Shown: piece after piece, positions 15,538 through 27,253 of the stretch
Position numbering within the stretch: position 1 is the stretch's first letter
Layout: the number at the start of each line of letters is the position of its first letter
Source: an uncultured Clostridia bacterium
GTDB taxonomy: Bacteria; Bacillota; Clostridia; Lachnospirales; CAG-274
Length of the DNA: 64,000 nt
Assembly: GCA_947632615.1 (NCBI GenBank)
Contig: CANRPW010000004.1
Location: 1 to 64,000 of the forward strand
Reading direction: 5' to 3'
The notes under the pieces: generated by a model
The model's input: only the letters and a program-made list of their open reading frames with translations
The model's database searches: none
What the model was told of the DNA's origin: nothing
Translations under genes and position numbers: made by a program

Positions 15538-16416
15538 TCATACTTTCTCTGTTCCGCACTTTCCGCAGTCTGAGCAGCCGTTGCATATAAGCCTGCTTCC
15601 GCAGCGGTCACAGGCTTGTCTGTAGTGGGGTATGTATAGCTTTTCCTTTATTTCCATACCAAAACGGTCGGTCAATTTCCACTCTATGGGCTTTCCTTCA
15701 AAATTCATGCCCGATTTATATGCCATTTCGCTTTGGAGCTGCTTTTTGGGCAGACGATAGGTTTTTCCGTCCTTTATAAAAACCGTCCCCGTTTCTATAA
15801 AGCAAAATGTTATGTTGTGAAAAACACACTCTTCCCTGAGCGCCTTCACCCATTCAAAATTGCAGGGTCTTGCCCCGTCATAGTTTTCGCCGCCGCAGAT
15901 GACCTGTTCTATCTGTCCGTCGCCTAAATATTTTTCAATACTGACGGGCCCTATAAACGGGGCACACATAATGCCCTTATGTTTAAAAGGAAGCTCCAGC
16001 AAAACGGGTATACGCTCATCAGCTCTTTTTTGATTTTCGCAGGTAACATTAAAAAACACATTTTCCCAGCCGTCACCCCAGTCCTTAGGCAAGCAGTTTT
16101 TCACACGCTGAGGTCTTTTTGTGAGCAGAAAGAATTTTACATCCGGCCGCATACGCATAAGTTCCCAGGCTTCATCACGCCAACTGTCTGCTTCAGCCAA
16201 AAAGAAATCAGAAGACATACACACTCTTATCAGCTCTCCGCTTTTTATTTTATATTCTCCTGTTCTGTTTTTTTGTATGGGATAGTTAAAGCCCTTGGTT
16301 TTGTAAATGTCAGCCCCGTTTCTGTTTCTTACACGGTCTAAAAAATACATATAGCAGTGACGGCAGCCCTCGCTGCATTTCACGCAGCCGTGCCACGGAT
16401 TCCAAATATCGTGCAT
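15538..16416 (-). CDS. DUF5131 (phage Gp37/Gp68-like) protein
   Basis: A 292-residue protein. It begins MHDIWNPWHGCVKCSEGCRHC; the CSEGCRHCY segment is a Cx3Cx2C motif like that of radical SAM enzymes. Family members contain LLTKRPQR and EQVICGGENYDGARP, both visible here. The last 45 residues form a cysteine-rich tail (CDRCGSRLICNGCSDCGKCG) that probably binds zinc or a cluster. No reaction is established for the family. It starts four bases after the sirtuin gene with GAGGTG before the ATG, so it is the distal gene of the same operon. Confidence 0.8.
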   Translation of the reverse strand: MHDIWNPWHGCVKCSEGCRHCYMYFLDRVRNRNGADIYKTKGFNYPIQKNRTGEYKIKSGELIRVCMSSDFFLAEADSWRDEAWELMRMRPDVKFFLLTKRPQRVKNCLPKDWGDGWENVFFNVTCENQKRADERIPVLLELPFKHKGIMCAPFIGPVSIEKYLGDGQIEQVICGGENYDGARPCNFEWVKALREECVFHNITFCFIETGTVFIKDGKTYRLPKKQLQSEMAYKSGMNFEGKPIEWKLTDRFGMEIKEKLYIPHYRQACDRCGSRLICNGCSDCGKCGTEKV

Positions 16417-16420
16417 AATA

Positions 16421-17269
16421 TCACCTCAGGTCGTTTAATACTTTTCCTATATCTTCGTCAATACATATTGACTGCCCTTCAATTTCCTTCGGGCAAAGGG
16501 CATCGCCGTAATTTATACATACATAAGTCGCTTTTCTGTTCTGCGCCGTCATGCGCCAAAAGGGATATTTTATTATAACAGGCGTATTATAGCCCACCCC
16601 AAGCTCTAAAAACAGAATATGCCCATCTATATGTGTTTGCAAAAAGCTTTCATAGAGGTTTGCAGCCCTATGCCAGCCCTCATCCTCAACAAATTTATCG
16701 TCGGAGCGAAGGTTCATAGTCATTGGTCTGCCGCAGTTGGGGCAGACAGGCAGCAGCTCTGATGGAATGTGCATATCTTTTTGCCTCTCCAGCATGCTGC
16801 GTATGATATTTTCATTATCATAAGTTTCCTGAGTACAGGGCACAGAGCACTGAAACAGACCATAGTCCCCTTGAGTATAAAAAAGCCTGTTTTTATCCAC
16901 CCCTGCCTTCTGAAAACAATGGTCTACATTTGTGGTGATAATGAAGTAGTCTTTGTTTTTTATAATATCCAACACCTGTCCATACACAGGTTTGGGAGCA
17001 TCTTTATAACGATTTATAAATATATAACGGCTCCAGTACGCCCAATACTCTTCCGGGGTGTCATAAGTATAAAATCCTCCCGAATACATATCGTGAAAGC
17101 CATATTTTTTCTCAAAATCCGCAAAATATTTGTGAAACCTCTCCCCCGAATAAGTAAAACCCCCGGAGGCGGAAAGCCCTGCACCTGCCCCTACTACAAC
17201 AGCATCTGCCCCAGCCATAGCCTCCTTCAGTCGCTTTAAATTATCCCAGTAGGCTTCTGTAGATCTCAT
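16421..17269 (-). CDS. class M sirtuin (SirTM-type protein ADP-ribosyltransferase)
   Basis: NAD-dependent Sir2 fold, 282 residues. The NAD-binding loop is VVGAGAGLSASGGFTYSGE and the next signature is TTNVDH. At the place of the catalytic histidine the protein reads YTQGDYG, and NLRSDDKF supplies the arginine seen in class M sirtuins, which are ADP-ribosyltransferases rather than deacylases. The zinc site CSVPC..CPNCG is present. ATG 17269 has GAGG six bases upstream; an in-frame ATG at 17290 lies before it. It overlaps the end of the macrodomain gene by 29 bp, the pairing known for SirTM operons. Known SirTM substrates are lipoylated GcvH-L proteins; neither GcvH-L nor LplA2 is encoded here. 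Confidence 0.88.
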   Translation of the reverse strand: MRSTEAYWDNLKRLKEAMAGADAVVVGAGAGLSASGGFTYSGERFHKYFADFEKKYGFHDMYSGGFYTYDTPEEYWAYWSRYIFINRYKDAPKPVYGQVLDIIKNKDYFIITTNVDHCFQKAGVDKNRLFYTQGDYGLFQCSVPCTQETYDNENIIRSMLERQKDMHIPSELLPVCPNCGRPMTMNLRSDDKFVEDEGWHRAANLYESFLQTHIDGHILFLELGVGYNTPVIIKYPFWRMTAQNRKATYVCINYGDALCPKEIEGQSICIDEDIGKVLNDLR

Positions 17270-18002
17270 AGTCGACCTCTTTAAAAACATTGAATATCAC
17301 CTCTATATCACCCTTGCATTTTCTCACGGTATCTACGGCTATTTCCGCCGCCAACTCATTGGGAAAGTGAAATTCCCCTGTTGATATACAGCAAAAAGCC
17401 ACGCTGTTTATGCCGTTTTCCTTAGCAAGCTCCAAGCAGGAGCGATAGCAGGAAGCCAGCAGCTCTCTGTCATTTTTATTAACGCTGCCATATATGATAG
17501 GGCCAACCGTGTGCAGCACATATTTGCAGGGCAAGTTGTAGGCAGGGGTGAGCTTTGCCCCTCCCGTTTTTTCCTCGTGCCCCTGTTTTTTCATTATTTC
17601 GGCACATTTAAGCCTGAGCTGTACCCCTGCATACGTATGAATACAGTTGTCTATGCAGGCGTGGCAGGGCACATAACACCCCGTCATACCGGAGTTTGCG
17701 GCATTTACAATGGCATCACATCTGAGTGTTGTTATATCCCCCTGCCAAAGGTAAATGCCGTCTTCTATGGGAATAAGCCCGTCAATATCCGTAATGCCCT
17801 TTTTAGCCGTTTCTTCCTTTAAATATTCGTCCTGCACCCTTATAAAATCTTCGTCTATGGGTAAGGGTCGTCTGACATTCATAAGTGAGCGCAGCAGCCT
17901 TTTCTGCTCCCCTTCGCCTGAGGGAACGGAAAGCTCTCTGTACCTTGAATTTTCATCTATCAATTTTTGTATAAGATAAATTCGTCTTTCTGTCTGAGTC
18001 AT
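17241..18002 (-). CDS. zinc-containing macrodomain ADP-ribosyl hydrolase
   Basis: A 253-residue protein. An N-terminal helical part (about 1-75) precedes a macrodomain with GDITTLRCDAIVNAANS. The stretch GCYVPCHACIDNCIHTYAG replaces the usual glycine-rich loop; its Cys-His-Cys residues are the zinc ligands of Zn-macrodomains linked to sirtuins. These enzymes remove ADP-ribose that the partner sirtuin adds. The start at 18002 is four bases after the flavin/ferredoxin gene. The partnership with the overlapping sirtuin is inferred from family knowledge and gene order. Confidence 0.9.
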   Translation of the reverse strand: MTQTERRIYLIQKLIDENSRYRELSVPSGEGEQKRLLRSLMNVRRPLPIDEDFIRVQDEYLKEETAKKGITDIDGLIPIEDGIYLWQGDITTLRCDAIVNAANSGMTGCYVPCHACIDNCIHTYAGVQLRLKCAEIMKKQGHEEKTGGAKLTPAYNLPCKYVLHTVGPIIYGSVNKNDRELLASCYRSCLELAKENGINSVAFCCISTGEFHFPNELAAEIAVDTVRKCKGDIEVIFNVFKEVDYEIYRSLLG

Positions 18003-18006
18003 GTTA

Positions 18007-18621
18007 TCATCTCTTTTCTATAGCCTTTGCAGGGCAGACATCAAAGCAGTTTCCGCAGTGCAGGCAGTGATTTTGCAAAATATTATATGGCTCTCCCTCT
18101 TCAATACACCTCTGAGGGCAGCTTTTAAGGCACTTGCCGCAGCCTATGCACTTATCTGTTATGTAATAGCCCTTTTTCTCTATATTTCCATCTCCTATAG
18201 TGTAAAAATCTCTGAAAATAGGATTTACGCCAAGGTTAAAATACTCAATATTGGCATTTTTTATTTCAAATACAATGCCTGCCATTTTTCTTGTATCATC
18301 CGGGTAGACATTGTAAAGATAGGGCTGCTCGGCAAAAATTATGTCTATCCACTTTTCCTGCTCGTCCTCTGCTATGACCTCAGCCTTAGCCGACAGTCTT
18401 ATCATTTCTTTATATTTAGTATACCCCAACACCTGCACACGTCCATCGGTCATAAGCTCCTCGCAAAAGGCTTTCCCCTTTGCCGTAAAAAATATCATAC
18501 GCTCAGGCTCATAGTGTATAGCTGAAATATTGCGTATTTGGGGCGCGCCGTTTTTATCCACCGTAGCAAAAGCCAACACGCCTACATATTCTAATTTTTT
18601 AAGACAGGTTTTAGCATCCAT
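18007..18621 (-). CDS. PNPOx-like flavin split-barrel protein fused to 2[4Fe-4S] ferredoxin
   Basis: A 204-residue redox protein. Residues about 1-125 form a pyridoxamine-phosphate-oxidase-like FMN barrel (VLAFATVDKNGAPQIRNISA). The C-terminus has two cluster motifs, CIGCGKCLKSCP and CLHCGNCFDVCP. It can pass electrons between FMN and iron-sulfur centres. In this operon it may supply electrons to the radical SAM enzyme or to the nitroreductase-like protein; that is inference. It starts 16 bp after the nitroreductase gene. Confidence 0.88.
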   Translation of the reverse strand: MDAKTCLKKLEYVGVLAFATVDKNGAPQIRNISAIHYEPERMIFFTAKGKAFCEELMTDGRVQVLGYTKYKEMIRLSAKAEVIAEDEQEKWIDIIFAEQPYLYNVYPDDTRKMAGIVFEIKNANIEYFNLGVNPIFRDFYTIGDGNIEKKGYYITDKCIGCGKCLKSCPQRCIEEGEPYNILQNHCLHCGNCFDVCPAKAIEKR

Positions 18622-18637
18622 TTTTATTCCTCTCCCA

Positions 18638-19222
18638 TTAAAATCTCAAAATTCGTCCGTCCCTGCGGGGCTTAGAGGTGGGGTGGTCATCTCCGCCTTT
18701 TGGGTAGCCCAGCAAAAGCTGCATTACTGCAAAATAGTCTGTGCATATTTCCCATTTTTTGAGTATTTCCTGTCCGTAAGGGTCGGCAAAGGCTGTCCAC
18801 CCCTGACCTATATAGCAGGAGCCTACCCCTAAAGAGTCTGCCATAAGCATCATATTTTCCGCTGCACAGGCGCAGTCTTCCCCGGCAAACAGGAAATTTT
18901 TAGGCGCAAAAAATGTAATTACAGTTGGTGCATTGTAAAAGGCATTTTTGAGGTTTGGGTCGTCTGCTATGCTTGGCTGCTGCTTAGATACATAGGCTGT
19001 GGCAGTAGCCATTTTAGGTTTAGAATTTGCACGCTTTATCTTTCCGAGCCTTTCGTTTACAGCTCTGTCCTGACAGACGGCAAACAACACTCCCTGTCTG
19101 CCCCCTGCGCTGGGAGCGTAAAGCCCCGCTTCCAAAATCTGCTGCAATGCTTCTTCTTCAATTTGTCTTTCGTCAAACCGCCTTATAGCACGGCGGTGCT
19201 TCATAAGCTCCAATAATTCCAT
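18638..19222 (-). CDS. nitroreductase-family flavoprotein
   Basis: FMN-dependent oxidoreductase, 194 residues. It starts MELLELMKHRRAIRRFDERQ, carrying the RRSIRxF-like FMN signature, then LYAPSAGGRQ and a C-terminal SLGVGSCYIG and LLLGYP. I chose ATG 19222, which overlaps the radical SAM stop by one base (TAATG) and has GAAGGA upstream; an in-frame ATG lies at 19243. Nitroreductase-fold enzymes act as dehydrogenases on some RiPPs, which makes it a candidate second tailoring enzyme. Its substrate here is unknown. Confidence 0.88.
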   Translation of the reverse strand: MELLELMKHRRAIRRFDERQIEEEALQQILEAGLYAPSAGGRQGVLFAVCQDRAVNERLGKIKRANSKPKMATATAYVSKQQPSIADDPNLKNAFYNAPTVITFFAPKNFLFAGEDCACAAENMMLMADSLGVGSCYIGQGWTAFADPYGQEILKKWEICTDYFAVMQLLLGYPKGGDDHPTSKPRRDGRILRF

Positions 19223-20256
19223 TATACCACATCCTTCCAACATTGTGGGTCTTCACTGTAAAAACTTCCGTTTGTTCCCTTAGCTACCGCAGGGCAGCCC
19301 CTACACCAAGCCTTTAGCTCACACCTGCCGCATTTTTTAAATTTGTCATACTCTCTGTATTTTTCCATCTCGCACACCCACACGTCAGCAAGCCTGTCGG
19401 TAAACACATTGCCTACCTTGCTGTCTGCCACACGGCGGCAGGCGTAAACGTCGCCTGTAGGCAAAATAGTGATGTGGCAGTTTCCGCAATTGCAGCCGCC
19501 ATATATAATACCCTCTTCTGCATCTGGTGGTATTTTAAACTCACCCATTTCGTATTCGTACAACGTCCAGAGATGGTCTTTTTTATTGAAATAAGTCTTG
19601 CAGCCCTCGGCTTCATATTTCTTGAATTTTTTGTCACAGACTGCAAGCAATTCTCTATATTCCCGAGGTGTCATAGAAGCATCAAGGTCGCCGCCGCTAG
19701 GTACATATCTTGAAAAAGCAAACACTGCTGCCCCTGCCTTTACCACCTCATCAATAATGCCCGGCACTTCCATACGGTTGGTTTTTGACACCGTTGTCAT
19801 AATTACACTGCGTATGCCTGCACGGTTTATGCAGTCTATTTTTTCAAGAGTACAGTCATAAGAGCCGGGCTTTCTGAACCAGTCGTGTGTTTCCTTAAGC
19901 CCGTCAAGAGACAACTGATATTTTTCGCAGCCGTAAAATTTAAGCTCCCGACATACCCAATCGTTCAGATGGAAAGGGTTTCCCAAAATAGTAAAGGGCA
20001 CACTGTGCTTGCGGAGAAGCTCCAAAAGCTGCCAAAAATCAGGGTGGAGAATAGGATCGCCGCCTGTTATGTAAAAATAGGGAAGCCTGTCATACATTTC
20101 ACAAAAGTCAAGGCAGTTATAAAATGTTGTTTCCATTTGATCCCGGCTCATGGAGTCGGGTTTTTTGCAAACATCCCCCGAAAAAATATAGCAATGCTTA
20201 CACCTTTGGTCACATTCGTCGGTTATGTGCCACTGAAAAGAAAAATACTGCTTCAT
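19222..20256 (-). CDS. radical SAM/SPASM peptide maturase, ACGX-type
   Basis: A 344-residue radical SAM enzyme. The [4Fe-4S]-SAM motif is CDQRCKHC at residues 15-22, followed by the glycine-rich YITGGDPILHPDFW. The SPASM domain (about 240-344) has GGCNCGNCHITILPTGDVYA and CGRCELKAWCRGCP, ligands for auxiliary clusters. The opening KQYFSFQWHITDECDQ resembles maturases of the ACGX-repeat peptide system. I chose ATG 20256 because GTGAGG lies eight bases before it. It follows the ACGX peptide gene directly, so it should modify that peptide, probably at its cysteines. The exact linkage is unknown. Confidence 0.9.
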   Translation of the reverse strand: MKQYFSFQWHITDECDQRCKHCYIFSGDVCKKPDSMSRDQMETTFYNCLDFCEMYDRLPYFYITGGDPILHPDFWQLLELLRKHSVPFTILGNPFHLNDWVCRELKFYGCEKYQLSLDGLKETHDWFRKPGSYDCTLEKIDCINRAGIRSVIMTTVSKTNRMEVPGIIDEVVKAGAAVFAFSRYVPSGGDLDASMTPREYRELLAVCDKKFKKYEAEGCKTYFNKKDHLWTLYEYEMGEFKIPPDAEEGIIYGGCNCGNCHITILPTGDVYACRRVADSKVGNVFTDRLADVWVCEMEKYREYDKFKKCGRCELKAWCRGCPAVAKGTNGSFYSEDPQCWKDVV

Positions 20257-20341
20257 ACTAAACATCCTCACTTTATATAAAAATCGGTTTTGCCGAATAA
20301 TTTACAAAAGTCCCCGATAAGAACCTCTCCCATCGGGAACC

Positions 20342-20360
20342 GGGATAAATTATTTATCCC
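20342..20360 (-). promoter_or_regulatory. stem-loop at the 3' end of the ACGX peptide gene
   Basis: GGGATAAA and TTTATCCC form an 8-bp perfect stem with the peptide stop codon in and beside the loop. A second short stem CCCGAT/ATCGGG lies at 20313-20337. No T-run follows. It may stabilise the peptide message or cut read-through into the maturase, giving more peptide than enzyme. Confidence 0.5.
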
Positions 20361-20493
20361 CTGCGCCGCATGCAGAGCCGCAAGCTGCGGGCTTTTCATC
20401 AGGCTTATCACCTGCACCGCAAGCTGAGCCGCAAGCTGCTGCCGGTGCAGCCTCTGACTTCTTATTCCAGCCAAAAAGATCAGTAAGTGCCAT
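20350..20493 (-). CDS. ACGX-repeat RiPP precursor peptide
   Basis: A 47-residue peptide. The leader is MALTDLFGWNKKSEAAPA; the core holds two copies of ACGSACGAGDK separated by PDEKPA, giving four ACGx units and four cysteines in all. AGGAGG sits ahead of ATG 20493. It is immediately followed by the radical SAM/SPASM gene. Short ACGx-repeat peptides beside such enzymes form a recognised class of predicted ribosomally made, modified peptides; the mature product is not known to me. The near-identical repeats suggest that the core expanded by duplication. Confidence 0.88.
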   Translation of the reverse strand: MALTDLFGWNKKSEAAPAAACGSACGAGDKPDEKPAACGSACGAGDK

Positions 20494-20545
20494 AATCGCC
20501 CCTCCTTTTAAATATTCAAAAGGCTTAATGCCCTCTGTATTTTTT

Positions 20546-20584
20546 ATTGTAAATATAATTTATAACCCGCACAAGTACGCACTT
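20546..20584 (-). promoter_or_regulatory. putative promoter and operator of the ACGX-sirtuin operon
   Basis: On the minus strand a -35 TTGTGC (20574-20569), 17 bp and a -10 TACAAT (20551-20546) precede the peptide gene. A near-palindrome AAGTACGCACTT (20573-20584) overlaps the -35 edge. This GTAC-type half-site arrangement is common for HxlR/YodB-like regulators, and such a gene lies divergently. Confidence 0.45.
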
Positions 20585-20635
20585 TTTTATTGGGATAGTC
20601 ACCTTTTTGTAACCATTCTTCTGTATAAAAGGCTG

Positions 20636-20679
20636 TTGCAACATTCAACATTTAGCAGTATAATATGAATGTAACATTC
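20636..20679 (+). promoter_or_regulatory. putative promoter and palindrome ahead of hxlR-type gene
   Basis: -35 TTGCAA (20636-20641), 17 bp, -10 TATAAT (20659-20664), then the perfect palindrome GAATGTAACATTC (20667-20679) just downstream of the -10. This is a suitable autoregulatory site. Confidence 0.5.
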
Positions 20680-20704
20680 TTTAATGATGTAATGGAGGTG
20701 CACT

Positions 20705-21034
20705 ATGAAAACGAAAGCCGAGCTAATACCCGAATGTCCCGTAGCTACCACCGTTTCTCTTATAGGCAACAAGTGGAAGCTTTTAATAATAAGAAATCTG
20801 TTAGAGCGCCCCTGGCGTTTTAACGAGCTTCAGAGAAATTTAGACGGCATAAGCCAGAAGGTGCTTACAGACAGTCTGCGCTCTATGGAAGCCGACGGCA
20901 TAATCACCCGTACGGTATATGCCGAAGTGCCCCCAAGAGTAGAATACGCTCTGTCGGAGCTGGGAGAGTCTTTAAAGCCCATACTTGACGTAATGAAGGA
21001 GTGGGGCGAAAGCTATAAGGCAGCAAATTTATAA
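20705..21034 (+). CDS. HxlR-family transcriptional regulator
   Basis: A 109-residue winged-helix protein. The family core is IGNKWKLLIIRNLLERPWRF, then ELQRNLDGISQKVLTDSLR and the wing. A single cysteine at residue 11 (PECPVATT) lies where redox-sensing members such as YodB and HypR have theirs. It is transcribed divergently from the ACGX-sirtuin operon across 211 bp that holds candidate operators, so it probably controls that operon in response to electrophiles or redox state. That control is inferred. Confidence 0.9.
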   Translation: MKTKAELIPECPVATTVSLIGNKWKLLIIRNLLERPWRFNELQRNLDGISQKVLTDSLRSMEADGIITRTVYAEVPPRVEYALSELGESLKPILDVMKEWGESYKAANL

Positions 21035-21044
21035 TATATTAAAA

Positions 21045-21087
21045 CAGCCGCTTCTGTTTGTTAAACAACGGAAGCGACTGCTTTTTT
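21045..21087. terminator. bidirectional terminator between hxlR-type gene and ptsI
   Basis: The stem is built from CAGCCGCTTCTGTTT and AAACAACGGAAGCGACTGC, followed by a T-run on the plus strand. It lies between two convergent genes. Confidence 0.75.
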
Positions 21088-22706
21088 TATTTTGTGGATG
21101 ATTCTCTTATCTTCTTTCTTACGGGAAGCACTCTTGATGATGAAACCGAAAGCTCGTCTACGCCCATTTTCATAAAGCGCTCTGTAAGCTCTAAGTCTGA
21201 GCCAAGCTCGCCGCAGATGCCTGCCCAAATACCTGCTGCATGTGCATTTTTGCATACAAGCTCTATAAGGCGAAGCACTGCCTCGTGGTGAGTGTCTGCT
21301 ATTGACTCTAACTTTGCGTTCTGCCTGTCTACCGCAAGAGTATATTGTGTTAGGTCGTTAGTGCCTATTGAGAAGAAGTCAACCAACTTTGCCAGCTTAT
21401 CGCTTATAATAGCAGCTGCGGGAGTTTCTATCATTATGCCTTCTTCTATGTTTTCGTCAAAGGGTATGCCCTCCGACTTAAGCTCTGCCTTGACTGCCCT
21501 TGAAATTTCCTTTATCTGCATAACTTCATTTTCCGAAATTATCATAGGATACATAATTGCAATATTGCCATAAGCACTGGCACGAAGCAAGGCTCTCAGC
21601 TGTGTCTTAAAAATATCCGGCTGCTGAAGGCAAATTCTGATGGCTCTATAGCCCAGTGCCGGGTTGTCTTCCTTGCCTAAGTTGAAATATTCAACCTGCT
21701 TGTCAGCGCCTATATCGAGAGTCCTTATAATTACCTTCTTGCCTGCCATCATCTGAGCCACCTTGCGGTATGCTTCAAACTGCTGCTCCTCTGTGGGGAA
21801 GTCGTCAGACTCTAAATATAAAAACTCGCTTCTGAAAAGACCTATACCCTTTGCATCATTTTTAAGCACGTCAGCCACATCACCTACGCCGCCTATGTTG
21901 GCATAGAGCTTAATGTGCTTGCCGTCAAGAGTTACGTCCTCTTGTCCCTTAAGGGCAGCAAGAAGCGCCTTTTCCTCTTTCTGCTTCTCAAGCTTTTCCT
22001 CATACTCTGCAAGTGTAGCCTCATCGGGGTCGATTATAAGTATGCCCTTGTTTCCGTCTACTATGCCCTGCTTGCCTGCCCATTCCTTTTCAATATCAAC
22101 GCCTATAAGGGCAGGAATGTCCATATTTCTTGCAAGTATGGCTGTGTGAGAATTTGATGAGCCAAGTCTTGTTACGAAGGAAAGAAGGTTTGCCTTGTCC
22201 ATCTGTACCGTTTCACTTGGGGCAAGGTCTTCTGCTATTAATATAACAGGCTCTTTGGGGGCGTTGTCGTTCCCGCCGCCCATAAGTACGTTAAGCACTC
22301 TTTCTGAGATGTCCTTCATATCGGCGGCTCTTGCCTTGAAGTATTCGTCCTCCATAGCCGCAAACATATCCGAAAGGTTGTCGCCTGTTCTTGCAACGGC
22401 ATATTCTGCGTTTACATTCTCCGTTTCGATTATGTTTATAACAGAGTCGTTAAAGTCATCGTCTGCCAGAAGCATCTGATGTACCTCAAATATAGCGGCG
22501 TTTTCTTCGCCAACTTCCTTAAGCGCCTTTTCGTAAATCTCACCAAGCTGCTCAAGGGCTGTTTCCTTAGCAGCCTCATATCTTGCCTTTTCGGCTTCAA
22601 GGTCCGCAGGCTTTTCTCTTCTTACCTGTCCCTTGTCTTTAGAGTAGAAGAATATCTTGCCTATGGCTACGCCCTTGACTATGGCTTTACCCTTAAATTT
22701 AGCCAT
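21087..22706 (-). CDS. ptsI: PTS enzyme I (phosphoenolpyruvate-protein phosphotransferase)
   Basis: Cytosolic enzyme that moves phosphate from PEP to HPr, 539 residues. The active-site histidine lies in SSNSHTAILARNMDIPAL. The C-terminal PEP-binding barrel has FRSEFLYLE, IRTLDIGADKQ and the signature DFFSIGTNDLTQYTLAVDR. It is the last gene of the sucrose operon, 18 bp after ptsH. Having general PTS genes inside a sugar-specific operon suggests that PTS capacity is induced together with sucrose uptake. Confidence 0.95.
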   Translation of the reverse strand: MAKFKGKAIVKGVAIGKIFFYSKDKGQVRREKPADLEAEKARYEAAKETALEQLGEIYEKALKEVGEENAAIFEVHQMLLADDDFNDSVINIIETENVNAEYAVARTGDNLSDMFAAMEDEYFKARAADMKDISERVLNVLMGGGNDNAPKEPVILIAEDLAPSETVQMDKANLLSFVTRLGSSNSHTAILARNMDIPALIGVDIEKEWAGKQGIVDGNKGILIIDPDEATLAEYEEKLEKQKEEKALLAALKGQEDVTLDGKHIKLYANIGGVGDVADVLKNDAKGIGLFRSEFLYLESDDFPTEEQQFEAYRKVAQMMAGKKVIIRTLDIGADKQVEYFNLGKEDNPALGYRAIRICLQQPDIFKTQLRALLRASAYGNIAIMYPMIISENEVMQIKEISRAVKAELKSEGIPFDENIEEGIMIETPAAAIISDKLAKLVDFFSIGTNDLTQYTLAVDRQNAKLESIADTHHEAVLRLIELVCKNAHAAGIWAGICGELGSDLELTERFMKMGVDELSVSSSRVLPVRKKIRESSTK

Positions 22707-22724
22707 AAAAAATCCCTCTCTTTC

Positions 22725-22982
22725 TCAAAGATTGTCTTTAAAGAACTTCTCCAATACATCGACAGCATTTGCTTCGTCGCCGCCATCAATACTGACAACT
22801 ATCTCCTGACCGCACTTGATGCCAAGACCCATAAGGGCAATAAGCTTTGATGCGTCTGCGCTTTTTCCGTTTGCTTCAATAGTTACCTTGCTTCCCGATG
22901 CCTTTGCAGCCTTTGCAAGAAGTCCTGCGGGTCTTGCGTGGATGCCTACGGGGTCTGTGATTTTGTAAGTAAAAGATTTCAT
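22725..22982 (-). CDS. ptsH: HPr phosphocarrier protein
   Basis: An 85-residue phosphocarrier. The phosphorylated histidine is His15 in GIHARPAG. The position equivalent to regulatory Ser46 of Bacillus HPr aligns with lysine in SADASKLIALMGLG, with a serine one residue earlier, so HPr-kinase/CcpA signalling through this protein is doubtful. The same DASKLIALMGLGIK-like sequence occurs in many clostridial HPr proteins of sugar operons. Start ATG 22982 follows an AGGAGG-type site. The gene lies 30 bp after the fructokinase gene. Confidence 0.94.
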   Translation of the reverse strand: MKSFTYKITDPVGIHARPAGLLAKAAKASGSKVTIEANGKSADASKLIALMGLGIKCGQEIVVSIDGGDEANAVDVLEKFFKDNL

Positions 22983-23012
22983 GTTTGTTTCCTCCTTAAT
23001 TTATAATATATT

Positions 23013-23960
23013 TTATAATAACCTGTCGGGGTATGAGGCAATAGCGCCTCTTCTTGTTACGCTTACTGCGCAAAATTTATTGGCAAAGGTAATGGCTTCA
23101 AAGAGTATATCTATAGGGCAGCTTTCCATATTTTTAAGATCTACCCCCATTTCGGATATCTTATATAAAAACGAGCCTATAAAGCCGTCCCCTGCCCCTG
23201 TGGTGTCTATTGCCTTTACCTTTATGGGCTTGGTTGTGGCAAAGTCATTTTTTCTCCACACCTCTGCGCCCTTTGCGCCTTTGGTGTATACTACTATTTT
23301 TGTGTTTCCTTTAAAAAGAATGTCCTTGGCTTCTTCTATAGTCTTTTTGCCTGTTATAAACTCTATTTCTTCGTCAGAAATTTTGACTATGTGAGCCTTT
23401 GGCATAAATTCCAATACAGTTTTCTTAAGGGCGGCCGTGTCATTCACAAGCTGAGGTCTTAGGTTTGGGTCGAAGCTTACCAGCATATTGTTCTTAAGCG
23501 CCAGCTCTATTGCCCTTCTGTGCGCCCCCTTCATAGGGAAGTCGCCAAGGGACACCGAGCAGAAGTGAAGCATATCGGCATCTTCAAACCATTCTTCTCT
23601 TATGTCCTTTTCACTAAGCAGCATATCAGCCCCGGGCTTTCTGTAGAATGAAAATTCTCTGTTGCCGTCCTCCTTTAAAGCCACAAAGGCAAGGCTTGTG
23701 TTTGCCTCCCTTGTGCGCTTTATATAAGAGCTGCCAACGCCGTATTTTTTAAATTCGTCAACTATTTTGTCACCGAAGGGATCAGCGCCCAGCTGAGTTA
23801 TAAACTCGCTTTTGCCCCCAAGCCTTGTAAAAGCACCGCACACATTTGCAGGCGCGCCCCCTACATTTGCATAAAAGGCAGGCACGTCTTTAATTGGCTT
23901 TCCCGCTTCCGACGGTATAAAATCTATAAGAGCCTCACCTATGGCAATCAGCTTTTTCAT
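23013..23960 (-). CDS. scrK: fructokinase (PfkB family)
   Basis: Phosphorylates the fructose released when sucrose-6-phosphate is hydrolysed. It has 315 residues. PfkB signatures are visible: GGAPANVCGAFTRLGG near residue 32 and DTTGAGDGFIGSFLY near 255, the latter with the catalytic aspartate. Start ATG 23960 has GGAGGT upstream and overlaps the end of scrB by 26 bp, so translation is coupled. The substrate assignment rests on operon context. Confidence 0.92.
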   Translation of the reverse strand: MKKLIAIGEALIDFIPSEAGKPIKDVPAFYANVGGAPANVCGAFTRLGGKSEFITQLGADPFGDKIVDEFKKYGVGSSYIKRTREANTSLAFVALKEDGNREFSFYRKPGADMLLSEKDIREEWFEDADMLHFCSVSLGDFPMKGAHRRAIELALKNNMLVSFDPNLRPQLVNDTAALKKTVLEFMPKAHIVKISDEEIEFITGKKTIEEAKDILFKGNTKIVVYTKGAKGAEVWRKNDFATTKPIKVKAIDTTGAGDGFIGSFLYKISEMGVDLKNMESCPIDILFEAITFANKFCAVSVTRRGAIASYPDRLL

Positions 23961-25335
23961 AATCTACCTCCATGGAATTCATGTCAAAAACATTTATACT
24001 TCCGCAGCTTATGCTGCATTTTTTGCTGTCTGTATAATACATGGTGGTCATAACATACTCGCCGTCATTTATATATACCTCAACTACCGATCTGTCTAAA
24101 AGTATTCGCACACTTTCAAGACTTTCAAGCCTTAGCTTTCTTATGCTCCTGCCGAAACTGTCCATTATCATTTCAAATACCCCATCTTCGTATTTAAGCA
24201 AAACACTTTCTCGGATAGAGGCTTCAAAATCCCCTTTGATATTTGTCACAATAATGTCAGCTCTTTCCGTTTCAAAGGCTTCCCACGGCTTTACTGTTCT
24301 TTCATTTGTTCTTAGGGCTTCAAGCTCACTTGCGGGGGTCTGATAAACCTTGCCGTTTTTGTACTTAAGCACCCTTGGCACGGTAAGGCAGTTTTGCCAA
24401 CCTTTCTCCGTGGTAGGGTTTACGTTATCCGAGTCGGGCATACCGACCCAGCCTATGAGTATTCTTCTGCCCTTTTCATCCTCAAAGGTCTGCGGGGCAT
24501 AAAAATCAAAACCGTAGTCCCACTCTTCAAAGCCCGCGGGAGTAAAATCGTCAAAAATGCTTTTATCCGTTAAAAAATATCCGCTCTGATATATGTTCTG
24601 ATAGCGGTATTCTTCGCTTTTAAGCCCCTGAGGCGAAACGGAGATAACCGTCACATCTCCGAGCTTAAATACGTCAGGGCACTCCCACATATAGCCGAAA
24701 GGCTCTTTGGTTGTGACTTCCTTTAAAAATCTCCAACCCTTATCGATATTTTCACTTTCATATATGAGCAGTGTACCCTTGTCAGAGAGCTTTCTTCCTC
24801 CAAGAGCCATATAATACTTATCTTCCTTCCACACCTTAGGATCTCTTATGTGACAGGTGTAGTCAGCGGGGTAGTCCTCATTGGTGAGCAGCAGCTTTTT
24901 TGAAAAATCGCTGTCGTTTGCATAGACTACATTGGAGTCTCTGCCGTCTGTTATATAGTCATAGTCCCCGGGGTGCTTTACATTACCCGTATAGAACAAA
25001 TGCACTTTGCCGTCCTCTGCCAGCCCCGAGCCTGAATAGACACCGTTTTTGTCCCATTCTGTATCGGGAGCTAAAGGCACGCCCATATATTTCCACTTTA
25101 TAAGGCTCTCCCCTTTATACCATCCCCAAAATTTTTCTCCGCCGTTTACGTTTGTGGGAGAATACTGAAAAAATACGTTATATTCCCCGTTATTTTGACA
25201 AAGTCCGTTGGGGTCGTTGAGCCATCCCACGGGAGGCATCAGGTGAAAGCCCTGACGCCTGCCGTCTTTATTTACTTGGGGAATAGCCTTTTCCGCATAC
25301 TTTATTCTGTTTAAGATACTTTCTCTTGAGTCCAT
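23935..25335 (-). CDS. scrB: sucrose-6-phosphate hydrolase (GH32)
   Basis: Cleaves sucrose-6-phosphate to glucose-6-phosphate and fructose in the cytosol. It has 466 residues from ATG 25335. GH32 motifs are in order: WLNDPNG (nucleophile aspartate), FYTGN, RDPKV and WECPDVF (acid/base glutamate). A C-terminal beta-sandwich follows (LDRSVVEVYIN). There is no signal peptide, as expected for a PTS-coupled enzyme. The start is uncertain; ATG 25341 is also possible, and 25335 has AAGGG at the better spacing. It lies 16 bp after scrA. Confidence 0.93.
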   Translation of the reverse strand: MDSRESILNRIKYAEKAIPQVNKDGRRQGFHLMPPVGWLNDPNGLCQNNGEYNVFFQYSPTNVNGGEKFWGWYKGESLIKWKYMGVPLAPDTEWDKNGVYSGSGLAEDGKVHLFYTGNVKHPGDYDYITDGRDSNVVYANDSDFSKKLLLTNEDYPADYTCHIRDPKVWKEDKYYMALGGRKLSDKGTLLIYESENIDKGWRFLKEVTTKEPFGYMWECPDVFKLGDVTVISVSPQGLKSEEYRYQNIYQSGYFLTDKSIFDDFTPAGFEEWDYGFDFYAPQTFEDEKGRRILIGWVGMPDSDNVNPTTEKGWQNCLTVPRVLKYKNGKVYQTPASELEALRTNERTVKPWEAFETERADIIVTNIKGDFEASIRESVLLKYEDGVFEMIMDSFGRSIRKLRLESLESVRILLDRSVVEVYINDGEYVMTTMYYTDSKKCSISCGSINVFDMNSMEVDYEKADCHR

Positions 25336-25351
25336 TCCCATCAACCCTTAA

Positions 25352-27253
25352 TTATTTTTCTATAGAAATAATTTTCTCCATTTTGTTGGTCTTTCCTGTT
25401 TTTTCCACCTTGAATGCAGAATAATCGTCACTGTTTGTAAGAAGAACAGCCGTAGTCGCAGAAAAGCCAGCCGCTTTGATCTTGTCTATATCAAAAGCTA
25501 TAAGCTTCTGACCCTTCTTTACCTTGTCGCCTTCCTTAACGAAAAGCTCAAAACCGTCGCCGTTCATCTGTACCGTGTCAATACCTACGTGAATGAGAAG
25601 CTCCATCTCGCCGGGGCCAGTAATGCCTACTGCGTGACGTGTGTCTGTGACTGAAGAAATTTCTCCGTCATAAGGAGCAACTACCTCTCCCACCTCAGGC
25701 TCGATGCCAACGCCGTCGCCAAGTACGCCTGATGCAAATGTTTCGTCGGGGATGGCTTCTCTTGCAATTACATTACCTGTTAAAGGCGCATATATTGTCA
25801 TATCCTGAGGCTCTGCCACGGGAGCTTCTTCCTTAACCGTTTCTTTGACCGTTTCCTTTTTTTCTGCAGGCACTTCATCCTTATAGCCAAAGAGCCATGT
25901 GAGTACGAATGCAACAACCGCCGATATAGCAAACATAGTTATATACTTAACAGGTGCGCTAAGACAAAGAAGTATGCCGAAAATACCTGTTACGCCTGTG
26001 CCTGTTGCTCCAAGCTGAGTTACCGATGCAAAGAGAGCGCCGCAAGCACCGCCTGCACAACCGCAGATAAAGGGCTTGAAATAACGAAGGTTTACACCGA
26101 AGATGGCAGGCTCTGTAATACCCATAAATGCACTGAAGGCTGAGGGAAGAGCCATAGATTTTGTTCTTGTCTGCTTTGTCTTTAAAGCAACTGCCAATGT
26201 AGCGGCACCCTGACCTACGTTAGCTGCGGATGCAAGGGGAAGCCAGTATGTAACGCCATATCTTGCAAGCTGACCTACGTCAATAACCGTGTACATGTGG
26301 TGAATACCTGCAACTACCGTAGGAGCATATAATGCGCCCATTACAAAGCTGCCTATACCGAGAGGAAGGGCTATAAGCGCCTGAATACCGTCGATAATAT
26401 GGTTTTCAATAAATACGAATACAGGACCAATTATAGAATATGTAAGATAACCCGTTACGAAAACGCTTACAAGAGGAGTTACAAAAAGGTCGAACATTTC
26501 GGGAACGATCTTATGCAGCCTCTTTTCGATAAAGCACATTACCCAGACTGCTATAATTACGGGGATAACGTGTCCCTGATAGCCTATAAGGTCTATGCTG
26601 TAAAGACCAAACCATACGCTCTGAGTTACTTTAACGCCCTCCGAAGCTACGGTCCACGCGTTCTGCAGGTCGGGGTGGATCATAATCATACCTATTACTG
26701 CGCCTAAGAAAGGATTTCCGCCGAATACCTTAGCTGCGCTGTAGGCAATGAGTATAGGCAGAAATACATAAGCTACATTACTGAAAAGCTTTGCAAATAC
26801 ATAAACGGAGCTTGTTGTGTCAAGCTGAATAAAGTTGTTGTTTACCATGAAGTTAAGGGCTTCCATTATGCCCATAAGAAAACCGCTGGCAACGATTGCA
26901 GGTATAATGGGTACGAAAATGTCGCCCAATGTCTTTATTGCTCTTTTAAATACGTTCTGCTTGGCATTTGCCGCCTGCTTTACCTCTTCCTTTGTGGCGG
27001 CAGACACTCCCGATACCTTTATAAACTCGTCATAAACCTTGTTTACAGTGCCTGTGCCTAAAATTATCTGAAGCTGACCCGAAGCAAAAAACACGCCCTT
27101 TACTCCGTCAATGTCTTCTACTGCCTTGCTGTCGCACTTGTCGTTGTCTGCTATAACAAGTCTTAATCTTGTGGCGCAGTGTGCGGCGGAAACAAGGTTT
27201 TCCTTTCCGCCGATGTTTTCATAGATTTTTTTTGCTACCAATCCATAATCCAT
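25352..27253 (-). CDS. scrA: sucrose-type PTS transporter EIIBCA
   Basis: Inner-membrane permease that imports and phosphorylates a beta-glucoside or sucrose, 633 residues. EIIB (about 1-85) has the phosphocysteine Cys26 in AAHCATRLRLV. EIIC (about 105-460) is the multi-helix membrane domain with GITEPAIFGVNLRYFKPF. A glucose-type EIIA (about 485-633) is fused at the C-terminus, its active histidine near 555 in ELLIHVGIDTV. Sucrose is inferred from the GH32 and fructokinase genes next to it. First gene of the operon; a promoter and LacI-type operator lie upstream. Confidence 0.93.
   Translation of the reverse strand: MDYGLVAKKIYENIGGKENLVSAAHCATRLRLVIADNDKCDSKAVEDIDGVKGVFFASGQLQIILGTGTVNKVYDEFIKVSGVSAATKEEVKQAANAKQNVFKRAIKTLGDIFVPIIPAIVASGFLMGIMEALNFMVNNNFIQLDTTSSVYVFAKLFSNVAYVFLPILIAYSAAKVFGGNPFLGAVIGMIMIHPDLQNAWTVASEGVKVTQSVWFGLYSIDLIGYQGHVIPVIIAVWVMCFIEKRLHKIVPEMFDLFVTPLVSVFVTGYLTYSIIGPVFVFIENHIIDGIQALIALPLGIGSFVMGALYAPTVVAGIHHMYTVIDVGQLARYGVTYWLPLASAANVGQGAATLAVALKTKQTRTKSMALPSAFSAFMGITEPAIFGVNLRYFKPFICGCAGGACGALFASVTQLGATGTGVTGIFGILLCLSAPVKYITMFAISAVVAFVLTWLFGYKDEVPAEKKETVKETVKEEAPVAEPQDMTIYAPLTGNVIAREAIPDETFASGVLGDGVGIEPEVGEVVAPYDGEISSVTDTRHAVGITGPGEMELLIHVGIDTVQMNGDGFELFVKEGDKVKKGQKLIAFDIDKIKAAGFSATTAVLLTNSDDYSAFKVEKTGKTNKMEKIISIEK

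Follow-up and report, generated by a model that had tools for sequence, protein, structure and literature searches.

The peptide operon considered here belongs, by its profile scores, to a system that is already named in NCBIfam, the ACGX system, represented there by the peptide family TIGR04341 (target_ACGX) and the maturase family TIGR04340 (rSAM_ACGX), on which a search of open-licence papers brought up, among those listed, no paper by title, the two family names and three related ones giving no paper at all. Three better described kinds of system resemble parts of it. As regards the peptide, the ranthipeptide pair PapA/PapB (freyrasin) likewise combines repeated Cys-X3-Asp/Glu units with a radical SAM maturase, and PapB (the rSAM/SPASM family NF047865) is described as cross-linking Cys to Asp or Glu within CX3D/E motifs (PMC9413430). 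As regards the surrounding genes, the SirTM/Zn-Macro extended operon, with its GcvH-L and LplA2, places a QG-type sirtuin beside a zinc macrodomain, accompanied by flavin oxidoreductases and by a partner that is small, modified and sulfur-bearing (PMC4518038, PMC11490716); QG in place of HG is given as the hallmark of class M sirtuins (PMC4518038), and a 2024 paper names GcvH-L as the only known SirTM target and calls targets elsewhere elusive (PMC11490716). As regards the RNA, clostridial internal terminators lying after the substrate-binding-protein genes of ABC operons are reported to lower the level of downstream transcripts, and those stems classed as Type IV are said to have hardly any U-rich regions (PMC9045158); in the cip-cel operon, stem-loops in the intergenic regions are described as determining both cleavage and stoichiometry (PMC10311766).

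The window (by which is meant the whole stretch of 64,000 nucleotides that was analysed, from an uncultured Clostridia bacterium) carries on its reverse strand an ORF at 20350–20493 (-), translated as MALTDLFGWNKKSEAAPAAACGSACGAGDKPDEKPAACGSACGAGDK, in which the leader MALTDLFGW is followed by two identical 11-residue units, ACGSACGAGDK. This 47-residue peptide scores 50.6 bits against TIGR04341, for which the curated cut-off is 28, and is the sole match to that profile in its source genome at E values up to 1. Downstream lies a radical SAM/SPASM maturase of 344 residues at 19222–20256 (-), with 582.9 bits against TIGR04340 (curated cut-off 400). An earlier note, which had taken the peptide for an ACGX precursor of 47 residues with a duplicated core, is borne out by these scores and by the translation, and the ATG at 20256 that it gave as the maturase start is the most likely one on comparison with relatives, in which an SD-like GUGAGG and an ATG are similarly placed. 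Judged on both profiles this is the ACGX system, and at the level of the families there is no difference from the NCBIfam definition; the literature searched yielded neither the RNA element nor the redox/ADP-ribosylation neighbourhood described below.

Relatives were obtained by a scan of species genomes, in which 549 loci were confirmed and the best 80 of these used; they are the closest relatives, mostly from metagenome assemblies, and they are related to one another. With the window and nine loci of its own family added the comparison covers 90 loci (together called the best-80 set in what follows), and in 86 of them an ACGX-repeat ORF lies upstream of the maturase; the four left out (L055, L061, L065 and L105) have 256 nt or less of upstream sequence and no visible peptide. 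One further locus, L073, has a gap of 24 nt, below the gap minimum, which leaves 85 for the counts of stop hairpins and best stems, the latter with gaps longer than 200 nt trimmed to 200. For want of a clear maturase ATG a further five (L038, L039, L044, L049 and L079) were dropped from later counts, and in three others (L036, L037 and L107) the peptide has no clear start. As to how widespread the system is, 10 of 48 genomes of the window's family have a maturase above the TIGR04340 cut-off, and 8 of 398 genomes in a phylum-wide sample have a TIGR04341 peptide above cut-off.

The duplication of the core is real. At the DNA level the two units differ at 5 of 33 positions, every difference being synonymous, so that the duplication cannot be a recent one. 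It carries no special meaning, however: since the 84 distinct peptides compared (relatives from the best 80 of 549) have between 2 and 14 cysteines, with a median of 6, a duplicated core is ordinary within the family. As to the likely chemistry, the spacing is that of a ranthipeptide such as PapA: in these same peptides the residue at +4 from a cysteine is Asp or Glu in 306 of 520 cases and Cys in a further 191, together accounting for 497 of the 520. This suggests, by analogy, that ACGX peptides may carry CX3D/E cross-links similar to the products of PapB. However, the window maturase scores only 67.4 bits on the PapB model NF047865, far under the cut-off of 340 and lower than its 156 bits on the SbtM model, so that the basis of the suggestion is the spacing within the peptide, and the +4 spacing is itself inherited inside homologous repeats. 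ACGX peptides also differ from PapA in having CX3C pairs and, mostly, a leader resembling MALSNLxxW, a tryptophan being found within the first 13 residues in 81 of the 84 (relatives again from the best 80 of 549). A divergent ACGX system is seen in L119, where the maturase is only 54% identical and the leader is MSDMLERVAAFG rather than MALSNLxxW; it keeps the HxlR neighbour and has an 11-bp stem in the gap between peptide and maturase.

That gap contains, in the window, two stems. The larger, P1, is an intercistronic stem-loop at 20310–20340 (-), of 13 bp (or 14 pairs in a longer fold) and lying directly before UUUUGU; its predicted folding energy is -18.3 kcal/mol, none of 200 shuffles folded as well, and it has the GC-rich stem of an intrinsic terminator. 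The smaller, P2, at 20284–20296 (-), comprises just 4 bp (UCGG/CCGA) immediately 5' of the maturase ribosome site, and its fold of -3.8 kcal/mol is weak, being equalled by 9 of 200 shuffles. The second small stem that the earlier note placed before the maturase fits P2, but the largest structure of the gap, P1, had been missed or underrated there. A generic terminator scan did not report P1 and gave instead a 5-bp alternative hairpin at 20339–20327, which overlaps the 5' arm of P1; an Rfam scan of 18000–21200 identified no known RNA family, its three matches all falling far under their gathering scores.

Stems of this kind recur. When the peptide–maturase gaps of the best-80 set were searched for their best stem, permitting G-U pairs and one mismatch, a stem of at least 9 pairs was present in 72 of 85, and in 71 of the 85 the best stem outscored all 20 base shuffles of its own gap; its median position is 17 nt past the stop codon and about 48 nt ahead of the maturase, with the proviso that not every locus has the counterpart of P1 as its best stem. 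When the same 85 gaps were folded together with 30 nt of coding sequence, z fell below -2 in 67. Stem scores of at least 24 were found in 57 of 74 ACGX gaps of this set; in control gaps, taken from the same DNA by simple ORF calls, they were found in 29 of 57 where the flanking genes converge, in 25 of 106 where they are co-directional and in 10 of 60 where they diverge. Among seven loci that had been found through the peptide and not through the maturase, six have a stem of at least 11 bp, two of the seven being near repeats of L082 and L085; in L114, one of the seven, the gap stem is no better than chance (17 of 100 shuffles were equally good).

Evidence of compensatory change comes from an alignment, A2, of 24 junctions selected by eye from 71 for a visible downstream stem, a choice that favours P2. 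In it 86.4% of the P1 and P2 cells are paired, 55 cells are changed on both sides compared with 19.5 in shuffles, and the covariation score is 0.419, where shuffles give 0.213 and slid alignments no more than 0.162. Eleven pairs show a change on both sides, a figure reached by 105 of 500 shuffles, while on the other four measures nearly all shuffles fell below the alignment. RNAalifold applied to the 24 rows of A2 recovers P1 and does not recover P2, for which both-sided changes occur in 2 of 5 aligned pairs; given this, and given that the rows were picked by eye, P2 is less secure than P1. A MAFFT alignment of the nine family loci (A3) misaligned the stems and was excluded from the pair counts. 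The model R1 was searched against the 62 loci outside its 24 rows (507,630 bases) and gave 63 matches at E values up to 1, every one of them at a junction and together covering 56 of these 62 loci (33 loci at E up to 0.01); it should be borne in mind that 18 nt of R1 belong to the end of the peptide coding sequence, which makes junctions easier for it to find. The possibility that R1 describes a dispersed repeat was also looked into, and there is no sign of this: 48 genomes of the family gave five matches at E up to 0.1, of which three are at ACGX junctions (G000, G001 and G007) and two are weak matches elsewhere (E 0.02 and 0.097), in a search that was limited to 77 candidates per genome with stricter filters and that missed the junctions in the other 7 of the 10 ACGX genomes. 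As far as comparison of sequences can establish it, then, the main element is the intercistronic stem P1, which is recurrent, shows compensatory changes and is conserved in relatives.

The hairpin to which the earlier note had given most weight is also exactly as claimed, an uninterrupted 8-bp stem at 20342–20360 (-) of the form GGGAUAAA-UAA-UUUAUCCC, in which the 3-nt loop is the stop codon itself. Its fold of -7.3 kcal/mol is modest taken alone, being equalled by 21 of 200 dinucleotide shuffles, and in the best-80 set 62 of 85 loci have no stop-enclosing stem or one of less than 6 bp; both facts would be expected if the hairpin were simply a coincidence arising from the fixed end GAY-AAR-stop. 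Against this, contiguous stems of at least 6 bp around the stop are found in 23 of the 85 loci where base shuffles lead one to expect 5.4, and stems of at least 7 bp in 15 where 1.5 are expected, although the shuffles preserve base make-up and not kinship, so that among related loci the excess should not be read as a clean probability. Stem sequences differ between lineages, and in L097 and L110 the stem has been retained through exchange of G-C and A-U pairs, with both sides changed, which also tells against coincidence; we regard that explanation as possible but rather doubtful. Stop-enclosing stems thus being enriched in a minority of relatives, the hairpin is, on sequence comparison, a recurrent helper in some loci and not the main element.

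A predicted difference in translation points the same way as the stems. In 73 of 79 loci of the best-80 set the predicted ribosome site of the peptide is stronger than that of the maturase, the median energies in these 79 being -11.7 and -8.2 kcal/mol respectively, and the corresponding values in the window are -12.7 and -8.2 kcal/mol. It is therefore probable, on the predicted structures and ribosome sites taken together, that P1 and the stronger peptide ribosome site result in an excess of peptide over maturase, and the product may be one made in quantity. The earlier note's expectation of more peptide than enzyme thus survives in substance, through the P1-type stem and the Shine–Dalgarno difference, while the role it gave the stop hairpin as main cause does not, most loci having no such stem of 6 bp or more.

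How P1 might act is a question on which two explanations have to be weighed. It could be an intrinsic terminator inside the operon that is read through in part, in which case processing would be unnecessary; the UUUUGU that follows P1 in the window is in keeping with this, and the clostridial ABC-operon terminators offer a parallel, being similarly long, GC-rich intergenic stems of low U content placed after a gene needed in excess (PMC9045158). The ACGX stems differ from these in mostly having no U-rich tail (among 73 gaps of the best-80 set only 7 have 5 or more T within the next 9 nt) and in the presence of a second small stem before the next gene, which the terminator explanation leaves unaccounted for; moreover the same source reports that a stem without a U-tract, SL-0885, gave no termination (PMC9045158). 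Alternatively, an endonuclease might cut the linker, P1 then guarding the message of the peptide and P2 that of the maturase, that is, selective RNA processing with stabilisation. Here it is the AU-rich linker, flanked by two recurrent stems, that is suggestive, as is the precedent of the cip-cel operon, where intergenic stem-loops lie between genes in unequal demand and are described as setting cleavage and stoichiometry (PMC10311766); the awkward point is P2, whose weak fold and non-recovery by RNAalifold were noted above. The T-tail comparison does not decide the matter: the same-set frequencies of a tail of at least 5 T are 13 of 52 for convergent gaps (Fisher p 0.026 relative to the 7 of 73 for ACGX) and 12 of 95 for co-directional ones, but the mean number of T after the stem is nearly equal in ACGX and convergent gaps (2.70 and 2.63), so that the means do not separate them. 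Termination and processing are for this reason weighted equally, each being in our estimation quite possible while falling somewhat short of probable. Nothing usable was found in the literature searched as regards a lantibiotic precedent for an intercistronic stem.

Turning to the neighbouring genes, an HxlR-family regulator (PF01638, 114 bits) is encoded divergently upstream at 20705–21034 (+). In the best-80 set such a gene lies divergently upstream in 71 of the 74 loci that have more than 1300 nt there, although it is not the immediate neighbour in a few (e.g. L040 and L113). The window protein has a single cysteine, Cys11, and this is present in 78 of 78 matches from the same set, an invariance that is compatible with thiol sensing while not proving it; on the RrpB model NF047364, which represents redox-sensing HxlR/MarR proteins, the protein scores 126 bits, below the cut-off of 175, and it is best described as a putative redox regulator. 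Between this gene and the peptide lies a conserved, operator-like region at 20571–20614 (-), with GGTTAC...GTGAC and the palindrome AAGTGCGTACTT, where AAAAAnGTGCGTA-like repeats occur in many relatives. Among 83 upstream regions of the best-80 set a palindromic match of the AAGTnnnnACTT type is present in 61 and GTTACn5-7GTnAC in 24, both counts being without a shuffle control; the region may be the HxlR operator. The stretch at 21087–27253 (-) is probably an ordinary sugar operon, with PtsI above cut-off and, judged by eye, ORFs resembling HPr, a sugar kinase, a glycosidase and a PTS permease.

Downstream of the maturase, on the same strand, come a nitroreductase-family flavoprotein at 18638–19243 (-) (PF00881, 88 bits) and, at 18007–18621 (-), a PNPOx-like flavin domain with two 4Fe-4S motifs (PF01243 and Fer4 families). 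Neighbourhood counts were made in those 49 named loci (out of the best 80 of 549) whose downstream sequence runs to 4.8 kb or more, and on the same strand a match to the first of these genes was found in 24 of the 49 and to the second in 36. There follow a zinc-type macrodomain at 17241–18002 (-), a predicted protein-ADP-ribose hydrolase, and a class-M type sirtuin at 16421–17290 (-). The macrodomain scores 348.5 bits on NF003163 (cut-off 272), its closest solved structures are 8rsi and 5kiv, and it has the zinc motif GCxxPxHxCIDN, which is found in 65 of 66 relatives. The sirtuin has QG for the catalytic HG, aligning with the QG of its closest solved relative, 5a3a (250 bits), and the macrodomain adjoins it; as a class-M sirtuin it would be a putative ADP-ribosyltransferase. 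Of its relatives, 68 of 76 have the QG pattern, with no match at that place in the other eight. The next gene of the same-strand run, at 15538–16416 (-), encodes a DUF5131 protein (PF07505, 140 bits) and is of uncertain operon membership, as it is found downstream on the same strand in only 3 of the 49 loci; a DUF5131 protein also adjoins the sirtuins of L161, L162, L165 and L168, stretches in which there is no maturase match.

Whether the sirtuin and macrodomain have anything to do with the peptide is the least certain part of the picture, and the contrary view, that the pair is a functionally unconnected neighbour, seems to us evenly poised. In favour of a connection, a sirtuin lies downstream on the same strand in 33 of the 49 loci (29 having both macrodomain and sirtuin), and in the phylum sample 7 of 8 ACGX genomes, compared with 12 of 390 others, match the sirtuin at E up to 1e-30 (some of the matches only 31–34% identical), the sirtuin lying within 5 kb of ACGX on the same contig in 5 of the 8. 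Within the window's own family, on the other hand, there is no excess, a sirtuin being present in 6 of the 10 genomes with ACGX and in 17 of the other 38 (Fisher p 0.49), even if it is close by on the same contig in 4 of these ACGX genomes; and the linkage label must change at least 10 times on the SirTM tree, bearing in mind that the labels were set by hand and that some of the “not linked” rows are on short contigs. Standalone sets also exist: L147, L159, L171, L173 and L176 have distant (32–37% identical) flavin/ferredoxin, macrodomain and sirtuin genes, with no ACGX maturase match in their available stretches, and such sets are possibly an older module that ACGX later joined. Taken as sequence evidence these results make the link frequent and not obligatory. 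A further consideration on the side of a connection is that the whole source genome, 98.3% complete, has no match to GCV_H (PF01597), so that the GcvH-L of the extended operon has no counterpart there; with GcvH-L named in the 2024 paper as the sole known target, the ACGX peptide becomes a candidate target worth testing, and simply that. Were the parallel to hold, the partner would, hypothetically, be the cysteine-repeat peptide, and the radical SAM enzyme would replace the lipoyl ligase.

A more elaborate proposal can be built on this, in which the modified peptide serves as a redox carrier inside the cell and is ADP-ribosylated by the class-M sirtuin (or regulates it), the zinc macrodomain taking the mark off again, the whole being a counterpart of GcvH-L with a cross-linked cysteine peptide in place of lipoate, the hairpins supplying the carrier in excess over the maturase and a thiol-switched HxlR repressor in control. 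We think this unlikely as a complete account, the peptide being a hypothetical sirtuin target. Open-licence papers yielded nothing that brings together any three of macrodomain, sirtuin, radical SAM, HxlR and Cys-rich peptide and, among the papers listed, no title linking radical SAM, ADP-ribosylation, sirtuin and RiPP. As improbable as the redox-carrier proposal is a secreted antimicrobial, i.e. a sactipeptide or ranthipeptide bacteriocin, as might be thought of for a radical SAM/SPASM maturase with a short precursor and for a family many of whose members come, as their record titles indicate, from gut and rumen samples: a Pfam scan of nine window proteins found no exporter, peptidase or leader-protease family among them, and the neighbours are instead the putative redox regulator and the flavin and ADP-ribose genes.

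The explanation that we favour overall, and hold to be reasonably probable, is that of an ACGX peptide whose message ends in a conserved RNA element within a redox operon. Family membership, recurrence of the RNA element with its compensatory changes, the predicted Shine–Dalgarno difference and the gene neighbourhood are the observations within it, and the expression ratio, chemistry, regulation and function of the operon are what we infer. On this explanation P1, aided in some lineages by the stop-codon hairpin, would end the peptide message, either by halting part of the transcripts as an internal terminator with a poor U-tract, or by marking the message for processing and stabilising its 3' end once the AU-rich linker has been cut, with P2 capping the 5' side of the maturase message; by either route the short peptide message would exceed that of the maturase, and the weaker maturase ribosome site would widen the difference. 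The radical SAM enzyme would modify the repeated cysteines, most plausibly to CX3D/E thioethers from Cys to Asp or Glu as in PapA/PapB, and the HxlR protein, as a thiol-redox regulator, would switch the operon. The modified peptide would most likely stay inside the cell and take part in a redox or electrophile-stress response, together with the flavin enzymes and the sirtuin/macrodomain ADP-ribosylation pair.

What this would mean for the family can be put in two testable forms. Across this family of gut peptide operons the conserved intercistronic element may be what sets the stoichiometry of precursor to maturase, and the locus may offer a way to ask what class-M sirtuins without GcvH-L act on.
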